The translations under genes and the position numbers were made by a program. The notes below the pieces were generated by a model. That model did not search any database. It had not been told where the DNA came from and worked only from the letters and a program-made list of their open reading frames with translations. Positions 48,113 through 64,000 of a stretch of 64,000 nucleotides of DNA are shown here, one piece after another. Position 1 is the first letter of the stretch. Each line of letters starts with the position of its first letter. The stretch comes from Moheibacter lacus (lineage in GTDB: Bacteria; Bacteroidota; Bacteroidia; Flavobacteriales; Weeksellaceae), in contig NZ_JACDZE010000001.1 of the NCBI RefSeq assembly GCF_014042165.1, forward strand, positions 642,595-706,594, read 5' to 3'.

Positions 48113-48130
48113 AGTCTAAATGATTTGATA

Positions 48131-48166
48131 CAAATCTACCATACATTCGCTGCAACCAGATTGCAA
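48131..48166 (-). promoter_or_regulatory. Metal-response promoter with CTGCAA-N5-TTGCAA element
   Basis: The minus-strand -7 box TAGATTTG is at 48138-48131. Upstream in the -33 zone, 48150-48166 carries CTGCAA, five bases, then TTGCAA. The same arrangement with one base difference in spacing precedes the efflux operon (54671-54707), so it is probably a shared operator. The Fur-family protein at 48207 is the nearest candidate regulator. Confidence 0.6.
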
Positions 48167-48206
48167 AATAAAATCTTCTTTCTTTTTTCAAAAAGAAATC
48201 TTCTTC

Positions 48207-48617
48207 TTATGCATTACATTTATCACATAAGCCTTTTACAACCAAACTGCTTTCTTCGGCTTTGAATTTTTTAGGAAGTTGAATTTTGGGTAGACTGACT
48301 TCTTTCATGCAAAATGTATGACCGCAATTTGTACAATGAAAATGAATATGGGTTTCCTCTGGCAAACATTCACAGGTTTCATCACACAATGCGTATTTCA
48401 CTGAACCCGTTCCGTCTTCTATGCTGTGCACCAATTTATTTTTCTCAAATGTTTTCAGGGTTCGATACAAAGTCGTTTTATCGGCTTGTTCAAATAAATT
48501 TTCCAACTCATTTAAACTAACGGCGTGTTCAGAATTTTGCAATTCTTTCAAAACCAAAAGACGCATGGCGGTCGGATGTATTTTTCTGGCTTTTAATTTT
48601 TTTTCTAAATCTTGCAT
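48207..48617 (-). CDS. Fur-family metal-responsive regulator
   Basis: A 136-residue protein with the winged-helix half (HPTAMRLLVLKELQ, ADKTTLYRTLKTFEKNKLVH) and the metal half: ETHIHFHCTNCGHTFC followed by CDKC near the end, giving two structural CxxC zinc sites and a His cluster. It could be a Zur- or Fur-like repressor. It lies 47 bases after the RND adaptor gene and 94 bases before the metal ATPase gene, so it is likely the local regulator. The effector metal is not shown by sequence. Confidence 0.9.
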   Translation of the reverse strand: MQDLEKKLKARKIHPTAMRLLVLKELQNSEHAVSLNELENLFEQADKTTLYRTLKTFEKNKLVHSIEDGTGSVKYALCDETCECLPEETHIHFHCTNCGHTFCMKEVSLPKIQLPKKFKAEESSLVVKGLCDKCNA

Positions 48618-48664
48618 GACGTACCAAATTTAAAGATTATCTCGTTTGAATCCATTGATTTAGA

Positions 48665-49912
48665 TCAATGCGAATGACTGTGTTCTCCCGAATTGTTCAT
48701 TTTTGCCAAAATGAAAAATGCGCCTTTGCTCACAATTTTTGCATTATCCTCAATCTTCACTAAGGGTGTGATCTGCGTAAAGCCAACATCAGTAGTTCCT
48801 TTTACCACCGGAATTCGTTCAAACGTAAATTCGTGTTCGTGTTCCTCTTCTGTATGCACATGCGGAGTTGGTTTTTGGATAAAAATAAAATCCTCTGCCC
48901 CTACATTTACAATGGCTTCGGTTGGAACGGCCGGAACCAAATTTTTCCCAACACTTATTACCGCTACCACGTTCATTCCGTCTATCAATCCTGATTTTTC
49001 TCCTTTCACTCGTGCATGAACCGGAACGGCTTTGCTTTGGTCTTCAAAAGTGGAACCGATGGAAAAAATTTCGGCATCGTATTCCTTTTCAGGATTATTG
49101 GTCATGGTAAAATGAATCAATTGTCTTTTTTTGATTTTTGGCAAATCTTTCTCAAAAACACCCAAATCCAAATGAAGATTGGAATTGTCCACGATTTCCG
49201 CAATCGGAAACGAAACATCTACATAAGCTCCTATGTCCACCAAAACCGCTCCAATTACGCCTGAAATGGGCGCTTTTACCGCCATGGACGAATTTAGATT
49301 TTTGGCGGAAACCGAACCCGGTTTTATACCCATCATCTGCAATTGTTTGGCCAGCGATGCCCGTTGGGTTTGCAATGTTTTCAATTGGCTTTCCGCATAT
49401 TGCAAATTCTTCAAAGCACCGGCATTTCCTTCGTACAATTCTTTTTGGCGTTTAACCTCCGTTTGGGTCATTTGGATTTGTCCGACTACCGTTAAATAGT
49501 TTTCCTGAACCAAAACTTGACCCGGATTTTCGATAACGGCAATCGTTTGTCCTTTTCCGATATAGTCGCCCGGTTGGACGCGAATTGATTTGATTTGCCC
49601 CGAATACAAAGATGTCACTTGGGCTTTGTTTTGATTGGGAACCTTTAGAAAACCATTGGCTTTTATGGCATCATTTAATTCTTTCATTTCGATATTCCCA
49701 AATTCGATTTTTATGGCTTTTACTTGAGCTTCGGTCAATGTAACTTCCGTCTCGCTTTCCTCCTCTCCATGCTCGTGACCTTCTTCCGATCCATGATCGT
49801 GGCCATCACCTTCGGCGTGTTCTTCAGTTTCTGAAACCTTTTTATCATCCTTGCATGAAATGGACGTTGAGACAAAAAGGATGGGCAGTAGTATATAAAC
49901 TAATTTTTTCAT
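48665..49912 (-). CDS. RND efflux periplasmic adaptor (CzcB/CusB type)
   Basis: A 415-residue lipoprotein (leader ends STSISC, Cys20) with a His-rich extension (HAEGDGHDHGSEEGHEHGEE), a barrel-sandwich core (IKSIRVQPGDYIGKGQTIAV, APISGVIGAVLVDIGAYVDV) and a His-rich second stretch (HVHTEEEHEHEF) plus a terminal GEHSHSH. These match metal-efflux adaptors rather than drug ones. It follows CzcC by 5 bases and precedes the Fur-family gene. Confidence 0.92.
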   Translation of the reverse strand: MKKLVYILLPILFVSTSISCKDDKKVSETEEHAEGDGHDHGSEEGHEHGEEESETEVTLTEAQVKAIKIEFGNIEMKELNDAIKANGFLKVPNQNKAQVTSLYSGQIKSIRVQPGDYIGKGQTIAVIENPGQVLVQENYLTVVGQIQMTQTEVKRQKELYEGNAGALKNLQYAESQLKTLQTQRASLAKQLQMMGIKPGSVSAKNLNSSMAVKAPISGVIGAVLVDIGAYVDVSFPIAEIVDNSNLHLDLGVFEKDLPKIKKRQLIHFTMTNNPEKEYDAEIFSIGSTFEDQSKAVPVHARVKGEKSGLIDGMNVVAVISVGKNLVPAVPTEAIVNVGAEDFIFIQKPTPHVHTEEEHEHEFTFERIPVVKGTTDVGFTQITPLVKIEDNAKIVSKGAFFILAKMNNSGEHSHSH

Positions 49913-49917
49913 GTATT

Positions 49918-51111
49918 TTAATTTTGATTGGCTAAATATTGATAGTCGATCATCGACTGATTGTATAAATTCAAAGCATCTAAATAATTTTCTTTAATCG
50001 AAATGGCCTGCGCGATGAATTGACTCAATTCTGCAAAACTGATTTCTCCACTTCGGTAACTCAACGTCGAAGCCGAAATGATGAATTCCGCTTGTTTCAA
50101 ACCGGATTCTTCATAAAAGTCCAACATCAATTGTTCTTTTTCAACTTGTGTCAAAGTTTGTTCTTTGCGGTTATCCAACTTCAGTTCTTGCCATTTGAGT
50201 TCTGTTTGTTGCAGTTCTACATCGGCTTCCAACGCTTTGACTTTCGTTTTCATCGAGCGCAAACCAAACAAAGGAAATGCAACCGTAAACGAAAAACCGG
50301 TAAACGGATCTTCCATCCCCAAATAAGTTTGGGAAAAAACTCTTGCAGAAAAATCAGGTCGATTTGTGTTTTTTTGGACATCAATCATCGATTGGGAAAC
50401 TTCTATATTTTGTTGCTGTACCAACAAAGAAGGATGGATATTTTCAGATAGAGTTTCCGTTTCTTCCAATTTTGACAACGGAATATCCTCCGGCAAATAA
50501 GACAATTGAGAGTTGGTCAATAACATCAATTGTTGTTGCTGAGTTTGAATATCTTTTTCCGTTTGTTTCAGAAAAGCTTGAATTTCTCGGTATTTTACAT
50601 CAGCCGAAATTTTATCCAACCCGGCGACATCACCTACATTATACCGAATCGTAGCCGCATCAAACATCGTTTTGTAAATACTATCCAACTGTTCGTACAA
50701 CTCTTTTTTGTCCTGTAAATACCAAAGTTCGTAATAGGCTTTTTTCACATCGCGTTTTATGGAAAATTGGATGGCTTCACGATTCAGTTTATGCGTTACA
50801 AGCAATTGTTCCATATAATTCTTTCGGGCTTTGTTGAGTCCCGGCCATGGAATTTCTTGCGACAAACCTACTTTCCAAATTCCTTCCGGATTACTCGGTT
50901 GAAAATCTTCATTTTCTATAAAAACGCCTGTTTTCGGAATCTCCATCGCTCCATCACGTTCCAGTTCTGCTTTTCTGATTTGTACATCGTTCAACGAATT
51001 CTGAAAATTACTTTCAGTCGCTATTTGAATGATTTCGTCTAAGGAAACCCTTTGCTGAGCTTGCGTAAGACCGAAAATTAGTATAATTAGTATCGAATTA
51101 ATTTTTTTCAT
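49918..51111 (-). CDS. TolC-family outer-membrane factor (CzcC type)
   Basis: A 397-residue OEP protein with signal peptide (MKKINSILIILIFGLTQAQQ) and the repeated helical pattern (SLDEIIQIATESNFQNSLND; ISADVKYREIQAFLKQTEKD). It completes the CBA efflux complex. The ATG at 51111 overlaps the CzcA stop region by 14 bases; the upstream extension to 51165 is not in the family. It precedes the adaptor gene by 5 bases. Confidence 0.9.
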   Translation of the reverse strand: MKKINSILIILIFGLTQAQQRVSLDEIIQIATESNFQNSLNDVQIRKAELERDGAMEIPKTGVFIENEDFQPSNPEGIWKVGLSQEIPWPGLNKARKNYMEQLLVTHKLNREAIQFSIKRDVKKAYYELWYLQDKKELYEQLDSIYKTMFDAATIRYNVGDVAGLDKISADVKYREIQAFLKQTEKDIQTQQQQLMLLTNSQLSYLPEDIPLSKLEETETLSENIHPSLLVQQQNIEVSQSMIDVQKNTNRPDFSARVFSQTYLGMEDPFTGFSFTVAFPLFGLRSMKTKVKALEADVELQQTELKWQELKLDNRKEQTLTQVEKEQLMLDFYEESGLKQAEFIISASTLSYRSGEISFAELSQFIAQAISIKENYLDALNLYNQSMIDYQYLANQN

Positions 51112-54100
51112 CTTTTGTCGAATTTTTTGAAGAATACATCCACTCATACAAAGACGGAATGACAAACAGCGTAAGAAAAGTTGCCGTAATCAAACCCCCA
51201 ATCACTACCGTTGCCAAAGGTTTTTGGACTTCTGCTCCCGCTCCAGTACTGATCGCCATCGGTAAAAACCCAAGTGAAGCTACCGAAGCGGTCATCAAAA
51301 CCGGACGTAAACGCACATAAGTCGCTTCCAACACACGTTTGCGCACATCTTTCATCCCTTCTTTTTCCAATTGGTTGAATGTTCCCATCAACACAATTCC
51401 ATTTAAAACTGCCACACCAAACAAGGCGATGAACCCCACTCCGGCCGAAATACTAAAAGGCATATCGCGCAGATACAGTGAAAACACCCCACCGATCGCC
51501 GCCATCGGAATAGCGGTAAAAATCAAAAGTGCTTGTTTTACCGAACGAAATGTAAAAAATAACAACACAAAAATGATAGCCAACGACAAAGGAACTACGA
51601 TCATCAAACGGTTTGTAGCTTTTTCTAAATTTTCAAATTGGCCGCCGTAGGTAACATAATAACCGGTCGGTAGCAAGTTAGGAGATGCGTCAATTTTTTG
51701 TTGCACTTCTTCCACCACCGATTTTACATCGCGATCCGTAACGTTGAAACCGATGACTACTTTTCGCTTTCCATCCTCACGACTGATTTGAGCCGGTCCC
51801 TCTTTGAATTGAACATTGGCCAATTGCGAAAGAGGAACTTGAATACCGGATTGAGTGGGTACAAATAGATTTCGTACGTCATCGATAGAGGTTCTGTAAG
51901 CGGAATCCAAACGCACCACCATGTCAAACCGCCGTTCGTCTTCGTAAACTTGTGAGGTCACTTTTCCGGCAAATGCCGTGTTTACTACATCGTTTATTTG
52001 ACCGGCAGAAACATTATAATTTGCCATTCGGTCACGGTCGTAATCGATGACGATTTGCGGAAGTCCTGTGGTTCGTTCCACTTGCGGTTCCGAAATTCCA
52101 TCTACCGTTTTTAAAATCGCATCCAATTTCGGAGCGATTAAACTAAGCGAATCCAAATTTTCACCATAAATCTTTACGGCTACATCTTGCCTGACTCCCG
52201 TCATCAATTCGTTAAAACGCATCTGAATAGGTTGGGAAGCTTCAAAGAAAACGCCGGGAATTATTTCCAATTCTTCCATCATTTTATCGGCCAATTCATC
52301 ATAGGACAAACCGGATTCCCATTCTTTAATTGGTTTTAATTTTATAATCAAATCCGTTACTTCAACCGGCATGGGGTCGGTTGGAATTTCGGCAGAACCG
52401 GTTTTTCCGACGACGGATTCTACTTCAGGAAAAGATTTGATAATGCGCGAAGCCAACATGGAAGTTTCAATGCTTTGGGACAAAGACGAACCTTGTGGCA
52501 AAATACAATGAAAAGCAAAATCGCCTTCTTTCAATTGTGGGATGAATTCGCCACCCATGCGTGAGAACATAAAAATGGACAATGCAAAAATGGCTACAGT
52601 TGCCCCAATTACGGCTTTTTTGAATTTTAATGCGAATTTTAATGCGGGCTCATAAAGTGCATGAAGTTTCTCGATCATTCTTTCGGAGAAATTCCTTTTG
52701 TGGGAATATTTCTTCGAGAGAAATAACGCACTCATCATCGGAATATAGGTCATGGAAAGTATCAATGCGCCCAAAATCGCAAAAGAAACCGTTTGCGCCA
52801 TCGGCCGAAACATTTTTCCTTCTATTCCGGTCAGGGTTAAAATGGGAAGATAGACGATGAGAATGATGATTTCTCCAAATGCGGCACTGTTTCGGATTTT
52901 GGAAGATGCAATGAAAACCTCTTCGTCCATTTGGGATTGAGTGAGCGTTTTGCCTTTGTTGACCATAGCCAGTCGGAAAAGGGTCGCTTCCACTATGATA
53001 ACCGAACCGTCTACAATTAAGCCAAAATCAATGGCTCCGAGACTCATTAAATTGGCACTTACTCCAAATAAATCCATCATCCCAAGGGCAAAAAGCAAGG
53101 ACAAAGGAATGGCGGAGGCGACAATTAAGCCCGCTCGGAAATTTCCCAAAAACAACACCAATACCAAAACCACAATTAAAGCACCTTCTGCCAGGTTTTT
53201 TTCTACCGTAGAAATCGCTCTTCCTACTAAATCGGTTCGATCAGCATAGGCTTCAATTGTAATATCTTCCGGTAAGGATTTTTGGATGATTTTCATCCTT
53301 TCTTTGATGTTTTTCACCACTTCTGCGCTGTTTTCTCCTTTGAGCATCATCACGATTCCGCCCACAACTTCACCTTCGCCATTATAGGTAAGGGCTCCGT
53401 AACGCACTGCATTTCCGATTTTTACGTTGGCAACGTCTCGCACGAGAATTGGAATTCCGTTGGGATTATTTTTGACCGGAATCTTTCCGATTTCTTCTAT
53501 CGAATTCACCATTCCTACACCCCGAATGAAATAGGAATTGGAATTGTTTTCGATATAGGCACCTCCTGTATTTTCATTGTTGTTTTGGAGTGCGACAAAT
53601 AGTTCAGGCAAGGTTATGTCCATCGCTCTCAAACGGTTTGGGTCGACGGCAACTTCATATTGTTTCAGATTTCCTCCGAAATTATTTACCTCTGCAACTC
53701 CTTTTGTTCCATAGAGTTGCCTTGCGACAATCCAGTCTTGGATGGTTCTTAGTTCCGTAACCGAATATTTGTTTTCGGCTCCTTTTTTCGGACGTAAAAC
53801 GTATTGGTAGACTTCTCCCAATCCGGTGCTTACAGGTGCCAATTCCGGTTCTCCTTTTCCTTCGGGGATGATTTCTTCCGCTTCTTTTAGTCGTTCCAAA
53901 ACCAATTGGCGTGCAAAATAGATATCTATATCTTCCTCAAAAACTACGGTAACGACCGAAAGCCCAAACCGGGAAATGGAACGCATTTCTTCTACACCCG
54001 GAATGTTTGCAAGGGATTGCTCGATAGGCATCGTGATAAATTGTTCTACTTCCTGCGTGGCGAAGGAAGGAGAGTTCGTGATGACCTGAACTTGATTGTT

Positions 54101-54229
54101 GGTAATATCGGGAACGGCATCTATGGGAAGCCGCATCGCACTCCAGATTCCCCAAATTATCAGGGCGATGGTGAATATTCCTATGATAAACTTATTCTTA
54201 ATACTGAATAAGATGATTTTATTTAGCAT
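51098..54229 (-). CDS. Heavy-metal RND efflux pump (CzcA/CusA type)
   Basis: A 1043-residue RND pump. It begins MLNKIILFSIKNKFIIGI, has twelve membrane helices in the standard two-by-six layout and the typical metal-RND segments IDFGLIVDGSVIIVEA (helix 4 with the charged Asp) and KTGSAEIPTDPMPVEVTDLI. It drives proton-coupled export of divalent cations such as Zn, Co, Cd or Ni from the periplasm. Its stop overlaps the CzcC start by 14 bases, so they are coupled. Confidence 0.95.
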   Translation of the reverse strand: MLNKIILFSIKNKFIIGIFTIALIIWGIWSAMRLPIDAVPDITNNQVQVITNSPSFATQEVEQFITMPIEQSLANIPGVEEMRSISRFGLSVVTVVFEEDIDIYFARQLVLERLKEAEEIIPEGKGEPELAPVSTGLGEVYQYVLRPKKGAENKYSVTELRTIQDWIVARQLYGTKGVAEVNNFGGNLKQYEVAVDPNRLRAMDITLPELFVALQNNNENTGGAYIENNSNSYFIRGVGMVNSIEEIGKIPVKNNPNGIPILVRDVANVKIGNAVRYGALTYNGEGEVVGGIVMMLKGENSAEVVKNIKERMKIIQKSLPEDITIEAYADRTDLVGRAISTVEKNLAEGALIVVLVLVLFLGNFRAGLIVASAIPLSLLFALGMMDLFGVSANLMSLGAIDFGLIVDGSVIIVEATLFRLAMVNKGKTLTQSQMDEEVFIASSKIRNSAAFGEIIILIVYLPILTLTGIEGKMFRPMAQTVSFAILGALILSMTYIPMMSALFLSKKYSHKRNFSERMIEKLHALYEPALKFALKFKKAVIGATVAIFALSIFMFSRMGGEFIPQLKEGDFAFHCILPQGSSLSQSIETSMLASRIIKSFPEVESVVGKTGSAEIPTDPMPVEVTDLIIKLKPIKEWESGLSYDELADKMMEELEIIPGVFFEASQPIQMRFNELMTGVRQDVAVKIYGENLDSLSLIAPKLDAILKTVDGISEPQVERTTGLPQIVIDYDRDRMANYNVSAGQINDVVNTAFAGKVTSQVYEDERRFDMVVRLDSAYRTSIDDVRNLFVPTQSGIQVPLSQLANVQFKEGPAQISREDGKRKVVIGFNVTDRDVKSVVEEVQQKIDASPNLLPTGYYVTYGGQFENLEKATNRLMIVVPLSLAIIFVLLFFTFRSVKQALLIFTAIPMAAIGGVFSLYLRDMPFSISAGVGFIALFGVAVLNGIVLMGTFNQLEKEGMKDVRKRVLEATYVRLRPVLMTASVASLGFLPMAISTGAGAEVQKPLATVVIGGLITATFLTLFVIPSLYEWMYSSKNSTKDEKN

Positions 54230-54711: not shown

Positions 54712-55665
54712 TTAAGATTTGTTTCCAGCATTATTGTTTTTCTTCATTTCGTCGCCTATCTGACTTGCTGCAGCAAAGGACGCAATCATATTGTTCAACA
54801 TATCACCTGCGGCATGTGGAGAGTTAGGCAATAAAATCAAATTGGAATTGTTCATCGTTCCAACTGCTTGTAACGTATCATAATGCTGGGTCACCACAAT
54901 CAGCGCAGAGGCTTCTTGAGAATTGATCCCGACTTTATTCAAAACATTGACAGATTCCTCCAATCCTCTAGCGATTTCGCGGCGCTGGTCGGCGATACCT
55001 TGACCTTGAAGTCGTTTGCTTTCTGCTTCGGCTTTTGCTTTTTCTACAATTAGAATGCGTTGCGCATCACCTTCGTACTGAGCCGCTACTTTTTCACGTT
55101 CAGAAGCATTGATGCGGTTCATCGCATGTTTCACTTGTTCATCCGGATCAATGTCCGTTACCAAAGTTTTGATGATATCATATCCATAATCGTTCATCGC
55201 TTCCTGCAGTTCACCTTTTACAGCAATTGCGATATCATCTTTCTTTTCAAAAACATCATCCAAACGGAGTTTTGGAACTTCTGCTCGAACGACATCAAAT
55301 ACATAAGAAGTGATTTGGGTATAAGGGTTGTCCAATTTATAAAATGCGTCATAGACCTTGTTTGCAATTACGACATATTGAACGGAGACTTTAATTTTCA
55401 CAAAAACGTCGTCTTTGGTTTTGGTTTCTACGACGACATCCAATTGTTGAACTTTTAATGAAAGTCGTCCTGCAACTCTATCTACAATTGGAATTTTCAA
55501 TTGGAATCCGGCGCCACGGACGCTTTGGAATTTACCAAATCGCTCAATTACGACTGAGGTTTGTTGTTTCACAATGAAAAATAAGCCCAATGCACTTAAT
55601 AGAAAAAGCCCGACTACGATATAAATTAAAGTCGAGAAAGTATTGAATAAATCTGCGGGATCCAT
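54712..55665 (-). CDS. SPFH/Band 7 (stomatin-like) membrane protein
   Basis: A 317-residue protein with one N-terminal helix (about 12-32, LIYIVVGLFLLSALGLFFIV), an SPFH domain (SVVIERFGKFQSVRGAGFQL; TDIDPDEQVKHAMNRINASE) and a coiled-coil tail rich in Ala/Glu (EKVAAQYEGDAQRILIVEKA). Such proteins scaffold membrane microdomains and regulate proteases. It lies 31 bases after the SufT-like gene on the same strand and ends 46 bases before the DUF6660 gene. Confidence 0.92.
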   Translation of the reverse strand: MDPADLFNTFSTLIYIVVGLFLLSALGLFFIVKQQTSVVIERFGKFQSVRGAGFQLKIPIVDRVAGRLSLKVQQLDVVVETKTKDDVFVKIKVSVQYVVIANKVYDAFYKLDNPYTQITSYVFDVVRAEVPKLRLDDVFEKKDDIAIAVKGELQEAMNDYGYDIIKTLVTDIDPDEQVKHAMNRINASEREKVAAQYEGDAQRILIVEKAKAEAESKRLQGQGIADQRREIARGLEESVNVLNKVGINSQEASALIVVTQHYDTLQAVGTMNNSNLILLPNSPHAAGDMLNNMIASFAAASQIGDEMKKNNNAGNKS

Positions 55666-55696
55666 AGTTTAAATTTTTTAGAAAAATAAGGAATTT

Positions 55697-56023
55697 TTAC
55701 AACATCCCCAATTCGAATTTCGCTTCTTCGCTCATCATCTCTCGGTCCCAAGGCGGATCAAAAGTGATTTCGACCTCTGCTTCTGTTACGCCTTCTATTT
55801 CTTCCACTTTATTTTTCACTTCGTTAGGCAAACTCTCCGCTACCGGACAATTGGGAGAAGTCAAAGTCATCAAAACTTTTACGTTTCCGCTTTCATTTGC
55901 AAATGCATCATAAATCAATCCCAATTCGTAAATGTCCACCGGAATTTCAGGGTCGTAAATGGATTTGAATTTCTCGACCAATCGCTCGCCGATTTCATTC
56001 AATTGTTGTTCTGTAAGTGCCAT
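55697..56023 (-). CDS. SufT-like DUF59 Fe-S assembly protein
   Basis: A 108-residue MIP18/DUF59 protein (MALTEQQLNEIGERLVEKFK then YDPEIPVDIYELGLIYD, and MTLTSPNCPVAESLP, with a DPPWDREMMS end). It helps mature iron-sulfur proteins. Start at 56023 follows the family; the 18-base extension to 56041 is not conserved. A -7 box (TAACTTTG) is at 56046-56039. It may share a transcript with the SPFH gene 31 bases on. Confidence 0.92.
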   Translation of the reverse strand: MALTEQQLNEIGERLVEKFKSIYDPEIPVDIYELGLIYDAFANESGNVKVLMTLTSPNCPVAESLPNEVKNKVEEIEGVTEAEVEITFDPPWDREMMSEEAKFELGML

Positions 56024-56038
56024 TTTTTTGATTTTATG

Positions 56039-56046
56039 CAAAGTTA
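56039..56046 (-). promoter_or_regulatory. -7 box TAACTTTG for the SufT-like gene
   Basis: The minus strand 56046-56039 reads TAACTTTG (TAnnTTTG), 15 bases before the ATG at 56023. Confidence 0.45.
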
Positions 56047-56084: not shown

Positions 56085-57080
56085 TTATCGAGCAAGTGAT
56101 TTCTTTAGTTTTCTGTAATTTTTGGAACGAATGACTTTACCCGCGTCCGTGATCATCAAACTTGCATAATCAGGGAAATTTTGAATGAACCTCAAACCAT
56201 TCTTTTTACCCAAGACCATCATGGTAGTACTTAATCCATTGGCAAATTCGGCATCCGGGCCTAGAACCGTAACGCTTGTTAAACCCTCTGCAGGAATGCC
56301 GGTTTTAGGATTGATAATGTGTGAATACCGCTTTCCACCTATCATCAGAAATTTCTCATAATTTCCTGAAGTAGTCACAGCTGCGTTTTTTAATTTTAGA
56401 ATATCGATAGGATTTTTAGGACGAAATGGGTTGTGGATTCCTATTTTCCAATTTGAATTTGAACTCCAAGTGGAAATATCGCCTGAAGCGTCTATGATTC
56501 CGGACTGAACCCCAATTGCCTGAGCAAAAGATCGGGCTTTTTGTGCGGCATAGCCTTTTCCGGTAGATCCAAAGCCAATTTTCATTCCTTTAAATTTCAA
56601 GAAAACAGTTTGATTCTTTTCATCTAAAATAATGTTTTGATAACCTACTTTTGAAATAGATTTTTGAATTATTTTCTCATCCGGAAACTCATCCATCCAT
56701 CCTTCTTTGTAATCGTAAACTTTTTCCAAAGCGGCAACACTGATGTCAAAAGCACCATTTGAAATTTCAGAAAAGTAAACCGCTCTTTTGGTCAAATCAA
56801 AAACTTCTTTGTCCACTTTCACAGGCTTAATTCCGGCATTTTCATTGATTCGAGACACCTGAGAATTAGGAATCCAATCCGAAATCAAATTTTCGATCCG
56901 AACAATTTCACTGATAATCCGGTCGATTTTCAGATTGGCTGATGCTGTATTTTCCTCCTCAATTGTAATTTTAAAACGGCTGCCCATCAGGATCGTATCT
57001 CTGACTTCAACAACTTGTGATAAAGCAAAATTGGAAAAAAGAAAAATTAGGAAAAATAATTTTTTGAATGGTTTGGACAT
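56085..57080 (-). CDS. apbE: FAD:protein FMN transferase ApbE (Asp-to-Asn variant)
   Basis: A 331-residue enzyme with a signal-peptide-like leader (MSKPFKKLFFLIFLFSNFALS). ApbE moves FMN from FAD to Thr/Ser of extracytoplasmic proteins. MGSRFKITIE (32-41), DASGDISTWS (197-206) and SHIINPKTGIPAEG (253-266) are family blocks. The C-terminal Mg-binding block normally reads ADxLAT; here it is ANGLST, so Asn281 replaces the Asp ligand. It follows the PepSY reductase gene by 2 bases and is last in the operon. Activity needs testing because of the Asn. Confidence 0.9.
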   Translation of the reverse strand: MSKPFKKLFFLIFLFSNFALSQVVEVRDTILMGSRFKITIEEENTASANLKIDRIISEIVRIENLISDWIPNSQVSRINENAGIKPVKVDKEVFDLTKRAVYFSEISNGAFDISVAALEKVYDYKEGWMDEFPDEKIIQKSISKVGYQNIILDEKNQTVFLKFKGMKIGFGSTGKGYAAQKARSFAQAIGVQSGIIDASGDISTWSSNSNWKIGIHNPFRPKNPIDILKLKNAAVTTSGNYEKFLMIGGKRYSHIINPKTGIPAEGLTSVTVLGPDAEFANGLSTTMMVLGKKNGLRFIQNFPDYASLMITDAGKVIRSKNYRKLKKSLAR

Positions 57081-57082
57081 GA

Positions 57083-59278
57083 CTAATAACAATCTGTTTT
57101 TAACTGACCTTTGCGCTTGAAAATCTCAAAGGATCTGTTGAGTTTTTCCTGACAAATTTCTTCTAGAACGCTTTCCACATCTCTTTGCATCGCCAAAGAA
57201 CCGCAAATCATAATCACACCTTTCTTTTCAAGTAATTCAGCAAAAAAATCTGCATCTCTACGCACCAAATCCATTACATAAGCAGGATTTTCTTCACGAG
57301 AAAAAGCCAAATTTAGCGAAGTCAATTTATGGTTTTCAATTTGCTTTTGCATCGATTTCTCATAAGACCTTACCAAATCATTATGAAACCTGAACCCAGC
57401 ATACAGATGTGTTTCTTTCTTTTTTGAATTTTCATCGATCATTCCCAAAAATGGTGCAATCCCGGTTCCATTGGCTATTAGGGCGATTTTTTTTGCTTTT
57501 TTGGGAAAATGGAAATGGGTATTTTTGATGATTCTGGCTTGGATGGATTCATTGTTTTTCAAATCATGTAAATAATTGGAACCCAATCCTAACTCATGCA
57601 ATTTCACAATCAATTTCAAATCTTTTCCAAATTTCCCGATCGAATAAAACCTTTCTCTATGGTCATTATCCGGATAAACCGCTAGCAAATCACCGGACTT
57701 GAACTTTTCTTTGGTTTTGAATAAAAGGCTAAATGAATCACCGGATTTCACATTTTCTTGCTCAGAAATGACTTTGAGTTTTTTGAGTTTCGGCAATTTG
57801 GACGCGTATAATGAAGGCGCATTTGCGAGTGCAATTTGGTTTTTTGCACTCCAGATTTTGATCCATTCCACAAACTCATTTGGTGATTTGTCATTTACCG
57901 TCATCAGATCCAAATGACGAATGGACCAACTATGGCCTTCAAACCAATTGTCCACTTTTTCAGCATAACCACAAAAATGTTTGTAAGATTTAGACCCAAA
58001 TCCGATAACTGAAAACTTAATTTGTTGTTTCTGTGGGTATTTGTTTAATAATTTTCTGAATTTACTCGCATTGGACGGTGCATCTCCTTGACCATAAGTT
58101 GAAGTAAAAACCATGATTTGTTTGGCTTTTGGGTATGATTTATACTGGTTCAACTCTGTCAGAAAAGACGAATGTCCATTTTCCAATAATTGTTTGTGCA
58201 CTTGATTGGCAAAATTGAGGGTTGTTCCGCCTTCAGAGCCAAATAGTAAAATAAATTCCGCATTTTTAGCATTGAATTTATTTTTGATTTTAATTGATTT
58301 TCTTTTCAATGCTATGACAAATCCTGAGTAAATAAAAAATAAAATATTGAGCGAGGCTATCCCCAAAACTACTGCCCAAATGCTGTTTGTCCGCCCCGTA
58401 TGAAGATCCAAACTGAGCGTTTCCCAAACTTTAGTTTTAGGATAATGGGTTTCATGGAGAATTTCTCCGGTAAATTGATCCAGAATTAATTCTCTGTCTT
58501 TTAATTTGATTTTGAAAAATTCCTCCGGATCTTCCATGAATGGAAATTCGATTTTCTCGACCTCTGAAAGTTTTGTGAGTTGAAAAATTTCAAATTCATT
58601 TTTAGGGATTTTTTGGTCAGTACGATCCATGATTTCACCCATTTCGGCAGCCGGTATTTCCGGATTGGGAATCCATTCAAACCGGATCATAAACAAATAA
58701 GTTCCCGTAATGGCAACGATAAAAATAGGCAGCAACAAAAGTCTACCTGCGATCACATGGAAATATTGGGCGAAATATTCTTTATTGATTTTGTCAAAAA
58801 ATTTGAGGATTCCATGTTGTCTTTTGATGATCAAAATCGTTCCTGAGATGACAATGAGCATCAAAAGAAATGAAACGATGCCGACGAGAAACCGTCCGGT
58901 TTCTTTGAGGAAAAGTGACCTGTGTAGAGCGGTCGTCCATTGGATGATTTCACTTTTGACAATTGGTTTTCCTAAAATTTCGCCTGAAATAGGATGAATA
59001 TAATGTTCAAAATCATTTCCATCTTCATCAAAACCTTTTAAAGTAACGAATTGATTCTTGTCAACGCTCAATTCTATGATTTCGGAATACTGTTTTTGAA
59101 GTTCAGGAATAGATGCTGCAATTGTGATTTCATCAAAACCATCGACTTTATAAGGTTGTGACTTTTCTTGGATCGGATCCCATGCAAGAATGACTCCCGT
59201 AGCGGAAGCCATCATTAAAAACAAACATGAAACCAGTGCCAACGCCAGATGGGAAAGCCTCCAAATGGATAAAGTCAT
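57083..59278 (-). CDS. PepSY-flavodoxin-reductase fusion (transmembrane NADPH oxidoreductase)
   Basis: A 731-residue fusion: PepSY-type membrane part with about four helices (about 1-330), a flavodoxin domain (LLFGSEGGTTLNFANQVH, TSTYGQGDAPSNASKF; about 340-480) and a CPR-like FAD/NADPH domain (RFYSIGKFGKDL; IANGTGIAPFLGMI; GSLAMQRDVESVL; about 500-731). It should bring electrons from cytosolic NADPH to the periplasm. Neighbours (TonB receptor, DUF2271, ApbE) point to reduction of an imported ferric chelate or to a flavoprotein carrier. Confidence 0.9.
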   Translation of the reverse strand: MTLSIWRLSHLALALVSCLFLMMASATGVILAWDPIQEKSQPYKVDGFDEITIAASIPELQKQYSEIIELSVDKNQFVTLKGFDEDGNDFEHYIHPISGEILGKPIVKSEIIQWTTALHRSLFLKETGRFLVGIVSFLLMLIVISGTILIIKRQHGILKFFDKINKEYFAQYFHVIAGRLLLLPIFIVAITGTYLFMIRFEWIPNPEIPAAEMGEIMDRTDQKIPKNEFEIFQLTKLSEVEKIEFPFMEDPEEFFKIKLKDRELILDQFTGEILHETHYPKTKVWETLSLDLHTGRTNSIWAVVLGIASLNILFFIYSGFVIALKRKSIKIKNKFNAKNAEFILLFGSEGGTTLNFANQVHKQLLENGHSSFLTELNQYKSYPKAKQIMVFTSTYGQGDAPSNASKFRKLLNKYPQKQQIKFSVIGFGSKSYKHFCGYAEKVDNWFEGHSWSIRHLDLMTVNDKSPNEFVEWIKIWSAKNQIALANAPSLYASKLPKLKKLKVISEQENVKSGDSFSLLFKTKEKFKSGDLLAVYPDNDHRERFYSIGKFGKDLKLIVKLHELGLGSNYLHDLKNNESIQARIIKNTHFHFPKKAKKIALIANGTGIAPFLGMIDENSKKKETHLYAGFRFHNDLVRSYEKSMQKQIENHKLTSLNLAFSREENPAYVMDLVRRDADFFAELLEKKGVIMICGSLAMQRDVESVLEEICQEKLNRSFEIFKRKGQLKTDCY

Positions 59279-59294
59279 AAAAAAATATTGAAAG

Positions 59295-59777
59295 CTATGA
59301 TTTGTTTAATTTCACATAGCGGATATAGCCAGTTCCTTCTTTTTTCTGGGTTATTCCTGCAGTGGTCAAAGGAATTTCAACATCCGTTACATAATACTTC
59401 TGATCTTCTACTGCCGATTCAAAACGAAGCTTATATCCTTTGTTCATTTTGGACTCATCGATCGTAAAAGTGGTGATGCTACGGTCTCCTGCTGCTACAG
59501 AAGCTCCGGTAATTCCGTCCAATTTTTCTTTCTTTTTTCCAATTTTTTTGTCCCACTCCTTGAATCCATTGTACCATTGTTTATCAGGCCCCATCATATA
59601 CAACGTCTTTTCATAATTTCCTTTTGAATCAACCAAAGAAACGACAATGTAAGCTTCCAAACCTTTGTAATTGGTCATTTGCAACATGCATTTGTATTTG
59701 GCATTTTGCGCTAAAGCCATTGATGCCAAACCCAATAAAAGGAAAGAAGTGATGATAATTTTGAAAGAAGATTTCAT
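59295..59777 (-). CDS. DUF2271 periplasmic protein with ApbE-type flavinylation motif
   Basis: A 160-residue protein with signal peptide (MKSSFKIIITSFLLLGLASMALAQ). Family DUF2271: TLYMMGPDKQWYNGFKEWDK and a C-terminal GYIRYVKLN. Residues 87-93 read DGITGAS, matching the D-x-x-[ST]-G-A-[ST] sites where ApbE attaches FMN; Ser93 would be the acceptor. It lies between the ankyrin gene (16 bases) and the PepSY reductase gene (16 bases). It is therefore proposed to be an FMN-bearing electron carrier. The family role itself is not established to me. Confidence 0.82.
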   Translation of the reverse strand: MKSSFKIIITSFLLLGLASMALAQNAKYKCMLQMTNYKGLEAYIVVSLVDSKGNYEKTLYMMGPDKQWYNGFKEWDKKIGKKKEKLDGITGASVAAGDRSITTFTIDESKMNKGYKLRFESAVEDQKYYVTDVEIPLTTAGITQKKEGTGYIRYVKLNKS

Positions 59778-59793
59778 AATCAATAAGTATAAT

Positions 59794-61269
59794 TTATTTC
59801 AAAAATTCGATGTTGGTAATATTTTCTTGTAAGAATTCATTTTCCAATGCCAAATCATAAGCGGTTTCTTCAAATTCAGTTTGGATGTCTTTTTTAGCAC
59901 CTAAAGAAACCAAATATTTCAAAATCGAATCGTCTTTTGCCATCAAAGCCGCTTTGTGCAAAGCCGTCATTCCATCTTTGTCCTGAACATTTAAATCGAT
60001 ATTTAATTTCTCTAAACTTCTGAATAAGTTCAAATCGTTTTTAGACGCGGCAACATGGTACAAACTACTCCCATTTTCTTGGAGCTCACGAAAATCCACT
60101 CCATTATCAACCAAAATGTTCAATTTATCTGCAAATTCATCAGCATTTTCATTGGGCCTAGCCGGACGATAAGATTGAAACAGATAAAAAGCTAAGTTTC
60201 CATCTTTTGCTCTGAAATTGGTTTTGGCGCCGTTTTCAATTAAATAGGAAACCATTTCCGGTGAGCTACTTTGAACTGCAAAAAACAAAGCCGATTCTCC
60301 TTTTGCATTTACGGCATTGAGGTCTTTCACTTTCGGCAAAATGGACTTTACTAAATCTATATTTTTTGTTGCAGTCGCTTCCATAAAAGCATTGTTTCCT
60401 TCTTTATCGGTCGAATTAAAATCCACGCCTTTTTCTAGGAAATATTGGATGATTTCTTCCTGATCTTTATTTCGAACCAAATTGAACAACACATTGGCTC
60501 CATTTTCATCTTTGGTTTTTGGGTCTAATTTGACTTCTTCCACCAAATATTTGTAAACGTCTAAACCATTGGAATTCCATCGAGAACCTTGTGAAGCGAT
60601 GATCAACGCACTTCCCGTTGCTTTCACTCCTTTTTTCTGAAGATTTTTCAGCAAATCAATGTTTCCATTTCTAGCAGCATAATCAAATACCGTCCGACCT
60701 AAATCATCTGCATCTTTTAGTGACAAACCTTTGGTTGTCAAATAGTCAGAAAGTTTCAAATCCGCATCATGACTGATGGAAAGCAATAGTAAATTAGCTC
60801 CGTTTTTATATTTTTGTTTGGGATCAATTCCGGCTTTAAAAAACAACTCATAGATTGCGGGATTGGTTTGTCCGTTTCCAGCAGCAAAAGAGATGGGCGT
60901 TGCGCCTTTATCATCTGTCCGGTTGATTTCCGACCCTTGATCTATCAAATATTTCACCAGTTCTACATTCCCTCTATTGGCTGCCCAATGCAAATAAAGC
61001 CTTCCGTCATGCGTGGTTTTATCAATGCTATTTCCGGGTTGATCAATCAGGTACAAAATGGTCGCAAGAGGCGCCTCATTGTTAATCGCAAAACTCACCA
61101 CATCATGATTTCCTCTGTTGGCTTGGGCTGGGTTGTTACCTTTGGTAATTTCAGCTTTTACAGTCTCTACATCAGGTTTTTGTTTCCAAAAGTCACCTGC
61201 CAACATCGAGTTATCCTGGGCTTTTGCGATTGTTGTGGTCAGTAAAATAGCGATCAATATTTTTTTCAT
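59794..61269 (-). CDS. Secreted ankyrin-repeat protein
   Basis: A 491-residue protein with signal peptide (MKKILIAILLTTTIAKAQ) and about eleven ankyrin repeats, for example DGRLYLHWAANRGNVELVKY and DKDGMTALHKAALMAKDD. It is the first gene of the DUF2271-PepSY-ApbE operon and so probably a periplasmic scaffold or interaction partner for the flavin system. A -7 box is at 61315-61308 on the minus strand. Confidence 0.9.
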   Translation of the reverse strand: MKKILIAILLTTTIAKAQDNSMLAGDFWKQKPDVETVKAEITKGNNPAQANRGNHDVVSFAINNEAPLATILYLIDQPGNSIDKTTHDGRLYLHWAANRGNVELVKYLIDQGSEINRTDDKGATPISFAAGNGQTNPAIYELFFKAGIDPKQKYKNGANLLLLSISHDADLKLSDYLTTKGLSLKDADDLGRTVFDYAARNGNIDLLKNLQKKGVKATGSALIIASQGSRWNSNGLDVYKYLVEEVKLDPKTKDENGANVLFNLVRNKDQEEIIQYFLEKGVDFNSTDKEGNNAFMEATATKNIDLVKSILPKVKDLNAVNAKGESALFFAVQSSSPEMVSYLIENGAKTNFRAKDGNLAFYLFQSYRPARPNENADEFADKLNILVDNGVDFRELQENGSSLYHVAASKNDLNLFRSLEKLNIDLNVQDKDGMTALHKAALMAKDDSILKYLVSLGAKKDIQTEFEETAYDLALENEFLQENITNIEFLK

Positions 61270-61417: not shown

Positions 61418-63823
61418 ATGCTTAAGCTTTACTTTTTAAGTTGTTTCATGCTTCTCGCTTTAAGTTTAAATGCGCAGCATAAAATCACCGGGACTGTGTA
61501 TGATGAATTTGGAAATACGGTTTCTGAAGTTGAAGTTAAGTTAAAAAATTCTACTACGCATAAAGTTACTCAATCTGACCAATCGGGCAAGTACAGCATA
61601 GAAAATGTCAAGTCAGGCGCTTACAAATTAATCATCAAAAAAGACCAAATCGAATCCTTTTTTGATGTTAAAATCCATCAAAATGATATTGAGTTAGATC
61701 CAGCATTTAAATCACTTCACGGCATAGAATTGGCTACAACCGAAATCGTTAAAGTCAAATCCATAAAAAGTGAAATAGAGAAACAAGGTTTTGCGGTGAG
61801 TGTCATCGAGACCAAAGAAGCTGCTTTGCGAAATATCCAAACCAATGAATTATTGGACAGAACAGCCGGAGTAAGGCTAAGACAAAATGGAGGTTTGGGC
61901 GCATCTGTAGATTATAACCTCAACGGTATGTCTGGAAATTCCGTGAAAATTTTCATCGATGGAATTCCGATTTCGACTTATGGTTCATCGTTTAATTTGA
62001 ACAGCATCCCACCAGCAATCATTGAAAGAATAGAAGTTTACAAAGGTGTGGTCCCTGGATATTTGGCAGATGATGCACTCGGCGGTGCTATCAACGTTAT
62101 TTTGAAAAAAGGTGCTAAAAACAGATTGAATGCTTCTATTTCTTATGGTTCTTTTAACACCACTCAGAGCAATGTCAATGGATTGTACCGAGATGAAAAA
62201 TCGGGTCTGACATTTAAAGCTTCAGCTTTTATGAATTATTCCGACAATGATTATGAAGTTTGGGGTGATAAAATTTACAATATTTTACCAAATGGTCAAT
62301 ACGAATACATCACAGCCAAAAGATTTAACGATGCTTTTCGTTCCAACGGAAGTGTAGTTGAATTAGGTTTTACAGAGATGAGTTGGGCCGATAATTTTTT
62401 TATCGGTTATACAAGGTCAGAATTATACAATGAAATCCAACACGGACAATTCATGACCATCCCTTACAAAGGACGATTTAACAGAGCCAACAACGATGCT
62501 TTCAGTTTGACTTATAATAAAAAAGACTTATTTACCAAAGGTTTAAACTTCAATGTTCATACGGTATATGGTGAAAGAAACACTGAAACAGTAGACACGG
62601 TAAAATGGAATTATAATTGGAATGGTGAAATCACATTGGATTTGAACGGGAATCCTATATTAAGGCCAAACGGTGCGCAGCAAGGAGCCCCTACGATGGC
62701 CAACATCAACCGGAAAAACACTTCTATCCGAGCAGGAATTAATTATGAAATCAATAAAAATCATCGGGTTTTTCTAGACCATTCCTTTAACAATGTCGAT
62801 CGCGTGGACGATGATTTGATCAGAACGGTTCTGGAAAGAAATTACATGGCAACCAGAGAAATGCAAAAAAACATTTCCTCATTGACTTATGAATTCAGGG
62901 CATTTCAAGACAAATTAAAACTCACTGCATTTGGTAAATATTATGACCAAACTTTGTCCAGGATGAATCCCACAAATCAACTCATAGACGGTGTACCGAC
63001 CAGAGTAGAAGACGTAAAAAGTCGGAATATCAATACAACGGGTTATGGTGGTGCAATTTCCTATTTGGTAGCACCAGCGGTAAGTATTTTGACTTCAGCA
63101 GAAAGAGCAGTTCGATTGCCTTCTGAGAACGAAGTCTTTGGAGATCCATCTGAAAACATAGAAGAGAACGTAAACCTAAAACCGGAAATCAGCAACAATT
63201 TCAATTTAGGATTTAAAATAGGTCCTTATAAATTATCCAATCATAAAATCGCCTTATCAGCCAATGGTTTCATACGAGATACAAGAGACAGAATTGCACC
63301 ACAAGTTCAGTCCAGTTTAAATTCTAACTTACAAACACTTCCTTTTGAAAACCAAGGAAAGACAAAGTCCATAGGATTTGATGCTGAACTAAATTACACG
63401 TTTAAAAGAAACCTGAATATCATCCTAAATGCAACCAAATTCGACCTGACTTATAACAGTTCTGTTGACAAAAGAAAGGTCCCAAATGAACCGACTTTTG
63501 TGCTCAATGGTAACGCCCAATATTCATTCAAAAACCTGATCGGAAAAGGATCTCAGTTAAATCTATATTATCATGTGATGTGGGTTGACAGTTTTCTTTA
63601 TTTACAAAAACCTTATGAAAATGTAAGCGGATATGACCGGTTTTATATTCCGGAACAATTCATCAATGACGCAGGTTTGAGCTATGTATTTCCAAACAAG
63701 AAATTCATACTAAGTTTTGATGCTAAAAACATCTTCAACCAACAAGCTTTTGACAACATGGCTGTTCAAAAACCCAATAGAGCATTTTATCTGAAACTAA
63801 ACTATCAATTAAATAATTTATAA
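61418..63823 (+). CDS. TonB-dependent receptor with carboxypeptidase-like N-domain
   Basis: An 801-residue outer-membrane receptor: signal peptide (MLKLYFLSCFMLLALSLNAQ), a carboxypeptidase-regulatory-like domain (about 21-100, HKITGTVYDEFGNTVSEVEV), a plug domain (about 120-235, with LLDRTAGVRLRQNGGLGA and YLADDALGGAINVILKKG) and a 22-strand barrel ending in KLNYQLNNL. It imports a TonB-dependent ligand; next to a ferric-reductase-like operon a ferric siderophore is the best guess, but substrate is not proven. Followed after 16 bases by a lipoprotein gene. Confidence 0.92.
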   Translation: MLKLYFLSCFMLLALSLNAQHKITGTVYDEFGNTVSEVEVKLKNSTTHKVTQSDQSGKYSIENVKSGAYKLIIKKDQIESFFDVKIHQNDIELDPAFKSLHGIELATTEIVKVKSIKSEIEKQGFAVSVIETKEAALRNIQTNELLDRTAGVRLRQNGGLGASVDYNLNGMSGNSVKIFIDGIPISTYGSSFNLNSIPPAIIERIEVYKGVVPGYLADDALGGAINVILKKGAKNRLNASISYGSFNTTQSNVNGLYRDEKSGLTFKASAFMNYSDNDYEVWGDKIYNILPNGQYEYITAKRFNDAFRSNGSVVELGFTEMSWADNFFIGYTRSELYNEIQHGQFMTIPYKGRFNRANNDAFSLTYNKKDLFTKGLNFNVHTVYGERNTETVDTVKWNYNWNGEITLDLNGNPILRPNGAQQGAPTMANINRKNTSIRAGINYEINKNHRVFLDHSFNNVDRVDDDLIRTVLERNYMATREMQKNISSLTYEFRAFQDKLKLTAFGKYYDQTLSRMNPTNQLIDGVPTRVEDVKSRNINTTGYGGAISYLVAPAVSILTSAERAVRLPSENEVFGDPSENIEENVNLKPEISNNFNLGFKIGPYKLSNHKIALSANGFIRDTRDRIAPQVQSSLNSNLQTLPFENQGKTKSIGFDAELNYTFKRNLNIILNATKFDLTYNSSVDKRKVPNEPTFVLNGNAQYSFKNLIGKGSQLNLYYHVMWVDSFLYLQKPYENVSGYDRFYIPEQFINDAGLSYVFPNKKFILSFDAKNIFNQQAFDNMAVQKPNRAFYLKLNYQLNNL

Positions 63824-63839
63824 AATCAAAAGGCACATC

Positions 63840-64000
63840 ATGAAAAAAAATCTTTTTAGAATTCTAAATTGCACTTTTGTTGCAGGGTTTATAGCATTGG
63901 CCGTAAGTTGTAGTGATGACGACAATGGAAATGCAACCATAGAACCACCTATCACGGAAGGAAGATGGATCACCATAGCCGGAGCAGTTCACGATGAAAC
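63840..64000 (+). CDS. DUF4374-like lipoprotein (5' part only)
   Basis: The first 53 codons are in the window. The leader MKKNLFRILNCTFVAGFIAL ends at a lipobox-like AVSC (Cys24), then SDDDNGNATIEPP and GRWITIAGAVHDET. This N-terminal pattern resembles DUF4374 lipoproteins that accompany TonB receptors with PepSY neighbours in Bacteroidota. It follows the receptor by 16 bases and is probably its cell-surface partner. The rest of the gene lies beyond the right edge. Confidence 0.7.
   Translation, partial: MKKNLFRILNCTFVAGFIALAVSCSDDDNGNATIEPPITEGRWITIAGAVHDE

Follow-up and report, generated by a model that had tools for sequence, protein, structure and literature searches.

Covalent flavinylation has been connected to iron through 3220 PepSY-like gene clusters found in 3040 genomes, the PepSY-like protein of a flavinylation cluster being of PF03929 or PF16357 (PMC8238504). 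That study (Meheust et al. 2021) identifies DUF2271 as an ApbE substrate, reports [ST]GA[ST] in ApbE-associated DUF2271 proteins, and describes a DUF2271 protein of A. ursilacus that was flavinylated by its cognate ApbE and lost the modification on a Thr to Ala replacement. DUF4198 proteins are a frequent, not defining, companion (1500 of the 3220 clusters; PMC8238504), and a PepSY-like protein with two heme sites has been described elsewhere (PMC11334425). Related clusters are reported to respond to iron in Caulobacter (PMC3751524, PMC11870441) and in Alteromonas (PMC7190382), and a related Caulobacter cluster is reported to affect fitness with EDTA.

The DUF2271 operon and its predicted flavin site

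The locus described here belongs to Moheibacter lacus, a relative of Flavobacterium, and lies in a window of 64,000 nucleotides (the whole stretch of DNA that was analysed). On the minus strand the gene order is ankyrin, DUF2271, PepSY-flavodoxin-FNR and ApbE, with a TonB receptor gene running divergently. The features are as follows.

61418..63823, plus strand: TonB-dependent receptor of siderophore type, divergent (Pfam Plug and OMP_b-brl_3)
63840..64000, plus strand: lipoprotein gene, 450 aa, running off the window (whole gene L296:2435-3787), remotely DUF4374/XusB-like
59794..61269, minus strand: secreted ankyrin-repeat protein, 491 aa, the operon's first gene
59295..59777, minus strand: DUF2271 protein, 160 aa from ATG, predicted flavin carrier (Pfam DUF2271, E 4.4e-38)
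59499..59519, minus strand: DGITGAS, predicted FMN attachment motif with acceptor Ser93 (from translation and conservation)
57083..59278, minus strand: PepSY_TM - flavodoxin - FNR-type NAD(P)H reductase, 731 aa (Pfam PepSY_TM, Flavodoxin_1 and NAD_binding_1)
56085..57092, minus strand: ApbE, predicted secreted FAD:protein FMN transferase (Pfam ApbE, E 7.5e-76)
56238..56240, minus strand: codon of ApbE Asn285, equivalent to FmnB Asp301 (position calculated from the ORF start)

The Pfam matches bear out the operon partners named in the original prediction (ApbE, a PepSY-flavodoxin reductase and the divergent TonB receptor); the PepSY protein, adjoining ApbE and DUF2271, matches PF03929 at E 1e-29. 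The ankyrin gene ahead of DUF2271 was absent from that prediction.

In our reading, the operon encodes a Bacteroidota-specific form of the published PepSY/DUF2271/ApbE systems, transmembrane reductases that depend on flavinylation; we place the probability of this reading at about two in three (0.68). In the secreted DUF2271 protein, Ser93 would receive FMN from ApbE. Electrons would then pass from cytosolic NAD(P)H, probably NADPH, to the FAD and FMN domains of the PepSY protein, on to two membrane hemes held by four invariant His, and from these to the covalent FMN on Ser93, with a ferric chelate brought in by the TonB receptor and the XusB-like lipoprotein as the likeliest final acceptor. 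The ankyrin protein would dock DUF2271 to its partners in the periplasm. Several results discussed below count against this reading, namely the Asn that replaces Asp in ApbE, the Ser acceptor, the Fur-box scan, the incomplete distribution of the receptor and lipoprotein families (79 and 32 of 181 loci) and seven loci with a GET motif.

Translation of the DUF2271 gene gave DGITGAS at residues 87-93, as predicted; the program-made ORF begins two codons earlier at a TTG, giving 162 aa and a motif numbered 89-95. Inspected by eye, the protein sequence opens with a Sec-type signal peptide that ends ..MALAQ. In 20,000 shuffles of the mature DUF2271 protein, [ST]GA[ST] arose by chance in 1.0% and D..[ST]GA[ST] in 0.07%. 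The predicted structure is of moderate confidence (mean pLDDT 77.4), and residues 85-98 in the 162-aa numbering, which hold the motif, fall below 50. Burial of DGITGAS in the fold would have told against a flavin site; the model places the motif in a low-confidence loop outside the predicted strands and helices, which suggests that the loop is exposed. Searches by sequence found no credible PDB relative of DUF2271 (best E 0.14) and no NCBIfam match to the window protein. C2- and Ig-like beta-sandwich proteins were set aside as fold relatives, since their best Z of 7.5 is at the level that common arrangements give.

The window genome encodes exactly one ApbE and one DUF2271, and no FMN_bind, NqrB/RnfD or DUF3570 protein was found in it at E 0.001. 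Across a family sample of 148 genomes, ApbE is present in all 46 with DUF2271 and in 39 of the 102 without it (Fisher p 9e-15, uncorrected for kinship). The five sampled genus-mates have neither DUF2271 nor ApbE (5/5; completeness is 76% and 81% for two of these genomes). Among the 46 DUF2271 genomes one has FMN_bind, as do 6 of the 102 others; the single genome with both (G433) has a DUF2271 protein with SGET and no cassette ApbE. It is conceivable that this ApbE mainly serves another, unrecognised substrate and modifies DUF2271 only by the way. The 39 genomes with ApbE and without DUF2271, the scarcity of FMN_bind among DUF2271-less genomes, and the orphan apbE genomes that remain after known substrates are counted (PMC8238504) would fit that explanation, but the 46/46 co-occurrence and the joint absence in the genus-mates argue against it, and we regard it as very improbable. 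The proposal that DUF2271 is the substrate is supported: DUF2271 is a demonstrated substrate in another organism (PMC8238504), and the genome yielded no further family of known substrates. The full motif rule that came with the proposal is not supported, and the idea is not new.

Downstream of apbE, the window encodes SPFH/Band 7 and FeS_assembly_P (SufT-like) proteins (54712-56041), and at 46169-54229 a heavy-metal P-type ATPase and CzcABC-like efflux genes (named from sequence). Conserved links between these genes and the cassette were rejected. Homologues of the SufT-like and SPFH genes occur in no other cassette locus (E 1e-20), and the metal-efflux neighbourhood is not conserved either, because at the same threshold CzcA occurs in only two other loci (L081, L170) and the P-type ATPase in three (L123, L172, L174).

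The acceptor motif and the neighbouring ApbE

We collected 187 loci (the window, 98 stretches from sampled genomes, 8 plasmid stretches and 80 genome-contig loci), of which 181 have a separate DUF2271 gene as found with a purpose-built profile. Left out of the 181-row counts are four ApbE-DUF2271 fusions (L079, L081, L088, L091) and two divergent DUF2271 loci (L092, L137). The counts that relate the motif to a neighbouring ApbE use 174 complete loci, omitting seven more in which a contig end or an insertion sequence truncates the locus (L104, L109, L170, L219, L220, L233, L239); the 174 loci, all from Bacteroidota, behind the ankyrin figure below are another set, the 181 minus seven proteobacterial plasmid loci. 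Since the sample sources overlap and some loci enter twice (e.g., L100 and L177), all counts are of loci and not of species.

[ST]GA[ST] is present in 173 of the 181 loci, with Ser as the acceptor in 158 and Thr in 15. ApbE lies within the fetched flanks of 150 complete loci, and 149 of these keep [ST]GA[ST], all ending in Ser (GAS), the exception being L222 with HAITRAS. The 24 complete loci without a neighbouring ApbE comprise 15 GAT, 7 GET and 2 GAS (L085, L169). The leading Asp, present in the window, is kept in 16/150 loci with a neighbouring ApbE vs. 24/24 without. With proteobacterial loci removed, the loci with ApbE are 144 Ser plus L222 (Asp in 13/145), and those without are 15 GAT, 7 GET and 1 GAS (Asp in 23/23). 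Aligning homologues had been put forward as a check on the expectation that D-x-x-[ST]-G-A-[ST] is conserved only near apbE. The [ST]GA[ST] core came through this check almost intact, but the full motif failed it: with Asp in so few ApbE-linked loci, D-x-x-[ST]-G-A-[ST] is not the conserved unit. According to a review (PMC12052999), replacing the motif Asp has minor effects only, and Ser is modified less well than Thr.

ApbE is encoded somewhere in 32/32 genomes searched, including every sampled genome whose locus lacks it (the host of the L169 plasmid lies outside this search). In a 60-row PepSY tree, ApbE-bearing and ApbE-less Bacteroidota cassettes are separated by one deep split; the neighbouring ApbE changes twice on this tree and the acceptor class six times. 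An independent-pairs test of motif against neighbouring ApbE found just two pairs, with which significance is impossible. The association between motif and ApbE neighbourhood is therefore nearly complete but unreplicated, running through one phylogenetic split.

The D-x-x-x-G-E-T form occurs in seven loci (L068, L084, L134, L260, L263, L264, L268), none with a cassette ApbE, and arises at three places inside the ApbE-less clade. Leading Asp and final Thr are kept in 7/7, and five of the seven retain the ankyrin and PepSY genes. Because these loci keep DUF2271 with GET in place of GA[ST], part of the family may work without flavinylation.

An Asp to Asn exchange in the cassette ApbEs

The window ApbE scores 255.6 bits against PF02424 (cut-off 25.6), and its Ser242 and His258 align to Ser257 and His273 of FmnB, so that family and both of these residues are held in common. 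The two proteins differ at FmnB Arg262, which is Lys in the window protein (residues counted in the alignment), and at the triad/Mg2+ Asp: Asn285 stands at the site of FmnB Asp301 and Vc_ApbE Asp285, as placed by alignment and matched by counting residues from the His. In FmnB, Asp301 forms a triad with Ser257 and His273 and binds both Mg2+ ions, and changing Mg2+-linked residues to Ala left activity much lower or abolished (PMC8906456).

This exchange is not peculiar to the window. Among 155 cassette or fused ApbEs, the site is Asn in 145, Asp in 6 and Gly in 4. The Asn type makes up all 145 Bacteroidota cassette ApbEs with a separate DUF2271, the Asp type consists of five proteobacterial proteins and one at L137, and all four Gly proteins are ApbE-DUF2271 fusions. 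Triad Ser and His are kept in 155/155, and position 205 is acidic in 155/155. We also fetched and examined 50 of 58 ApbE matches from genome searches. All 41 non-cassette proteins have Asp at the site; among these, L160 carries Ala in place of the triad Ser. The remaining nine are the ApbE of L137 (L161, Asp), three cassette genes already counted (Asn), three fusions (Gly) and two further Asn-type proteins from genomes in which a contig end interrupts the cassette, the gene in each case lying on a different contig. In a 65-row ApbE tree, the 15 Asn-type representatives group together as a single clade (SH-aLRT 100) that falls within the Bacteroidota ApbEs, away from the sampled proteobacterial cassette ApbEs; given this placement, the Bacteroidota cassettes probably recruited their own ApbE.

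It could be argued that the exchange impairs ApbE, leaving DUF2271 poorly flavinylated or unflavinylated and acting without covalent FMN. Asn in every Bacteroidota cassette ApbE, the damage done in FmnB by loss of the Asp side chain (PMC8906456), and the GET variants as proof that the family can persist without GA[ST] all speak for such an impairment. Against it, the triad Ser and His are universally retained, all but one of the complete loci with ApbE nearby keep the acceptor motif, and no second ApbE is encoded in the genome. Asn is itself able to ligate Mg2+, which also counts against impairment, and we judge this explanation improbable.

More tentatively, and at clearly less than even odds, we propose that the Bacteroidota cassette ApbEs are a functionally distinct flavin transferase subfamily. 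Marked by the change from Asp to Asn, it would be specialised for Ser-acceptor, relaxed and often Asp-less DUF2271 proteins and would work with a constant periplasmic ankyrin docking protein, while ApbE-less cassettes would use an Asp-type ApbE encoded elsewhere and keep a strict D-x-x-[ST]-G-A-T or change to D-x-x-x-G-E-T. The determinants of ApbE substrate specificity are poorly understood, and these cassettes offer natural matched pairs: the changed-site ApbE clade with a relaxed Ser motif vs. the ApbE-less cassette clade with a strict Thr motif.

Two variants were seen alongside. The fusions L079, L081, L088 and L091 have Gly at the ApbE triad Asp and are followed by a short PepSY protein, and their DUF2271 part reads TSAT, AGAT, TSAT or SSAT; as this departs from [ST]GA[ST], the fusions may be inactive for flavinylation. 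At L137:7558-9600, a DUF2271-like protein (E 2e-5, below cut-off) carries DAVTGAT and a C-terminal type IX secretion sorting domain, and its gene adjoins that of an Asp-type ApbE on the opposite strand. Judging from these domains, it is possible that this is a flavinylated protein exported to the cell surface.

Ankyrin partner, proposed electron path and likely final acceptor

The ankyrin gene precedes DUF2271 in 171 of 174 Bacteroidota loci, and among all 181 loci it lies within 700 bases of DUF2271 in 171 and within 150 bases in 168. The ten loci without a nearby ankyrin gene are the seven proteobacterial plasmid loci, two orphan DUF2271 loci without PepSY (L084, L263) and L085, which is cut at the contig start. 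The protein aligns over its whole length, with 35-59% identity to the window protein across 25 diverse rows, and is predicted with high confidence to form a helical repeat structure (mean pLDDT 92.6). Its role, we suggest, is probably that of a scaffold in the periplasm on which DUF2271 and its partners dock; for Flavobacteriia and relatives it is a candidate for a component still missing from iron reduction. The main text of PMC8238504 makes no mention of ankyrin. In the open-access literature searched, no paper joins ankyrin with ApbE and PepSY or with DUF2271, and among the matches listed for ankyrin with flavinylation none was on topic by title. Further upstream, Plug was found in 10 and DUF6607 in 5 of the genes that precede the ankyrin gene, the rest being mixed (69 of 87 collected proteins, 44 loci). 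The proteobacterial plasmids (L169-L175) carry DUF2271 and PepSY, with ApbE in 5/7, beside two-component systems and metal transporters; a small PepSY protein stands just before DUF2271 in four of six annotated plasmid stretches and a hypothetical gene in a fifth (L173 is unannotated).

With regard to the electron path, matches to NADPH-cytochrome P450 reductases and to CysJ fall in the C-terminal half of the PepSY protein. A PepSY cytochrome of the FoxB type has two hemes, each held by a pair of conserved His; in an alignment of 26 PepSY proteins, five of them proteobacterial, His 10, 119, 174 and 293 never vary and are candidate ligands of two hemes. PDB searches with this protein showed no PepSY structure among the best 60 of 66 and the best 60 of 225 matches.

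The original prediction of an imported ferric chelate gains from the siderophore-type receptor and the XusB/DUF4374-like lipoprotein encoded alongside the operon. Against the model of MxcH, a myxochelin receptor, the TonB receptor scores 361.8 bits, below the cut-off of 925, and the lipoprotein gene follows the receptor gene. Neither the Pfam DUF4374 model nor the PDB gave a direct match to the lipoprotein, but hhalign joined it remotely (99%, E 6.9e-18, 18% identity) to a DUF4374-bearing group, one member of which matches DUF4374 at E 3e-47. DUF4374 is the XusB family, whose genes adjoin those of TonB receptors and PepSY proteins (PMC13142918). An MxcH-like receptor and a remotely XusB-like lipoprotein together support a ferric siderophore as the acceptor at the window locus, within the limits of a remote link and of a receptor family that occurs in the flanks of 79 of 181 loci. 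In a purpose-built iterated profile search, the lipoprotein family was always accompanied by the receptor family in the same locus. A scan for Fur-like boxes upstream of the ankyrin gene in 170 loci gave scores that resemble shuffles and no clear signal, with a modest excess at 11/14 matches (25 observed vs. 13.6 expected); the best candidate in the window, at 9/14, is no box.

The same electron path could also end at something other than a ferric siderophore, such as another metal or the repair of oxidised periplasmic or surface proteins, with the receptor a chance neighbour. The receptor family is present in the fetched flanks of fewer than half of the loci, and homologues on proteobacterial plasmids lie near two-component systems, several records also having P-type ATPases, a CCC1/VIT1 transporter or an RND efflux pump. 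In the window, the CzcABC-like pump and metal P-type ATPase begin ~1.9 kb beyond apbE. These observations are countered by the rarity of the pump and ATPase homologues at other loci and by the iron response of the related Caulobacter and Alteromonas genes, and we consider a non-siderophore acceptor unlikely. A flavinylation-dependent reductase acting on a ferric chelate remains our preferred reading, and the mechanism first proposed is the best available but known in outline: PMC8238504 had already published its core idea by showing DUF2271 flavinylation and iron-linked PepSY clusters.

Compared with known systems, the locus resembles XusABC of Bacteroides in its TonB receptor, an adjacent surface-type lipoprotein that is only remotely related to DUF4374/XusB, and a PepSY inner-membrane protein as the presumed reductase; the flavodoxin/FNR domains, DUF2271, ApbE and ankyrin protein belong to the window operon and do not figure in the XusABC account (PMC13142918). 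The Caulobacter genes CC_3059-CC_3063, which are iron- and Fur-regulated, likewise form an iron-responsive cluster that holds DUF2271, ApbE and a sulfite-reductase-type flavoprotein, with DUF4198 and no ankyrin protein in the genes listed (PMC3751524); no DUF4198 (PF10670) was detected in the eight window proteins scanned. The nearest likeness is to the PepSY-like flavinylation clusters (PF03929, DUF2271 and ApbE; PMC8238504), which have in common with the window PepSY_TM with an NAD-binding domain, a DUF2271 [ST]GA[ST], ApbE and a nearby TonB receptor. The window differs from these in its ankyrin first gene and in Asn for the ApbE triad Asp, and the Bacteroidota cassettes as a group mostly lack the leading motif Asp and have ApbEs that are not sister to the sampled proteobacterial cassette ApbEs. 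What appears to be new, within the literature searched, is the constant ankyrin partner and an ApbE clade that combines the Asp to Asn change with a relaxed Ser motif.
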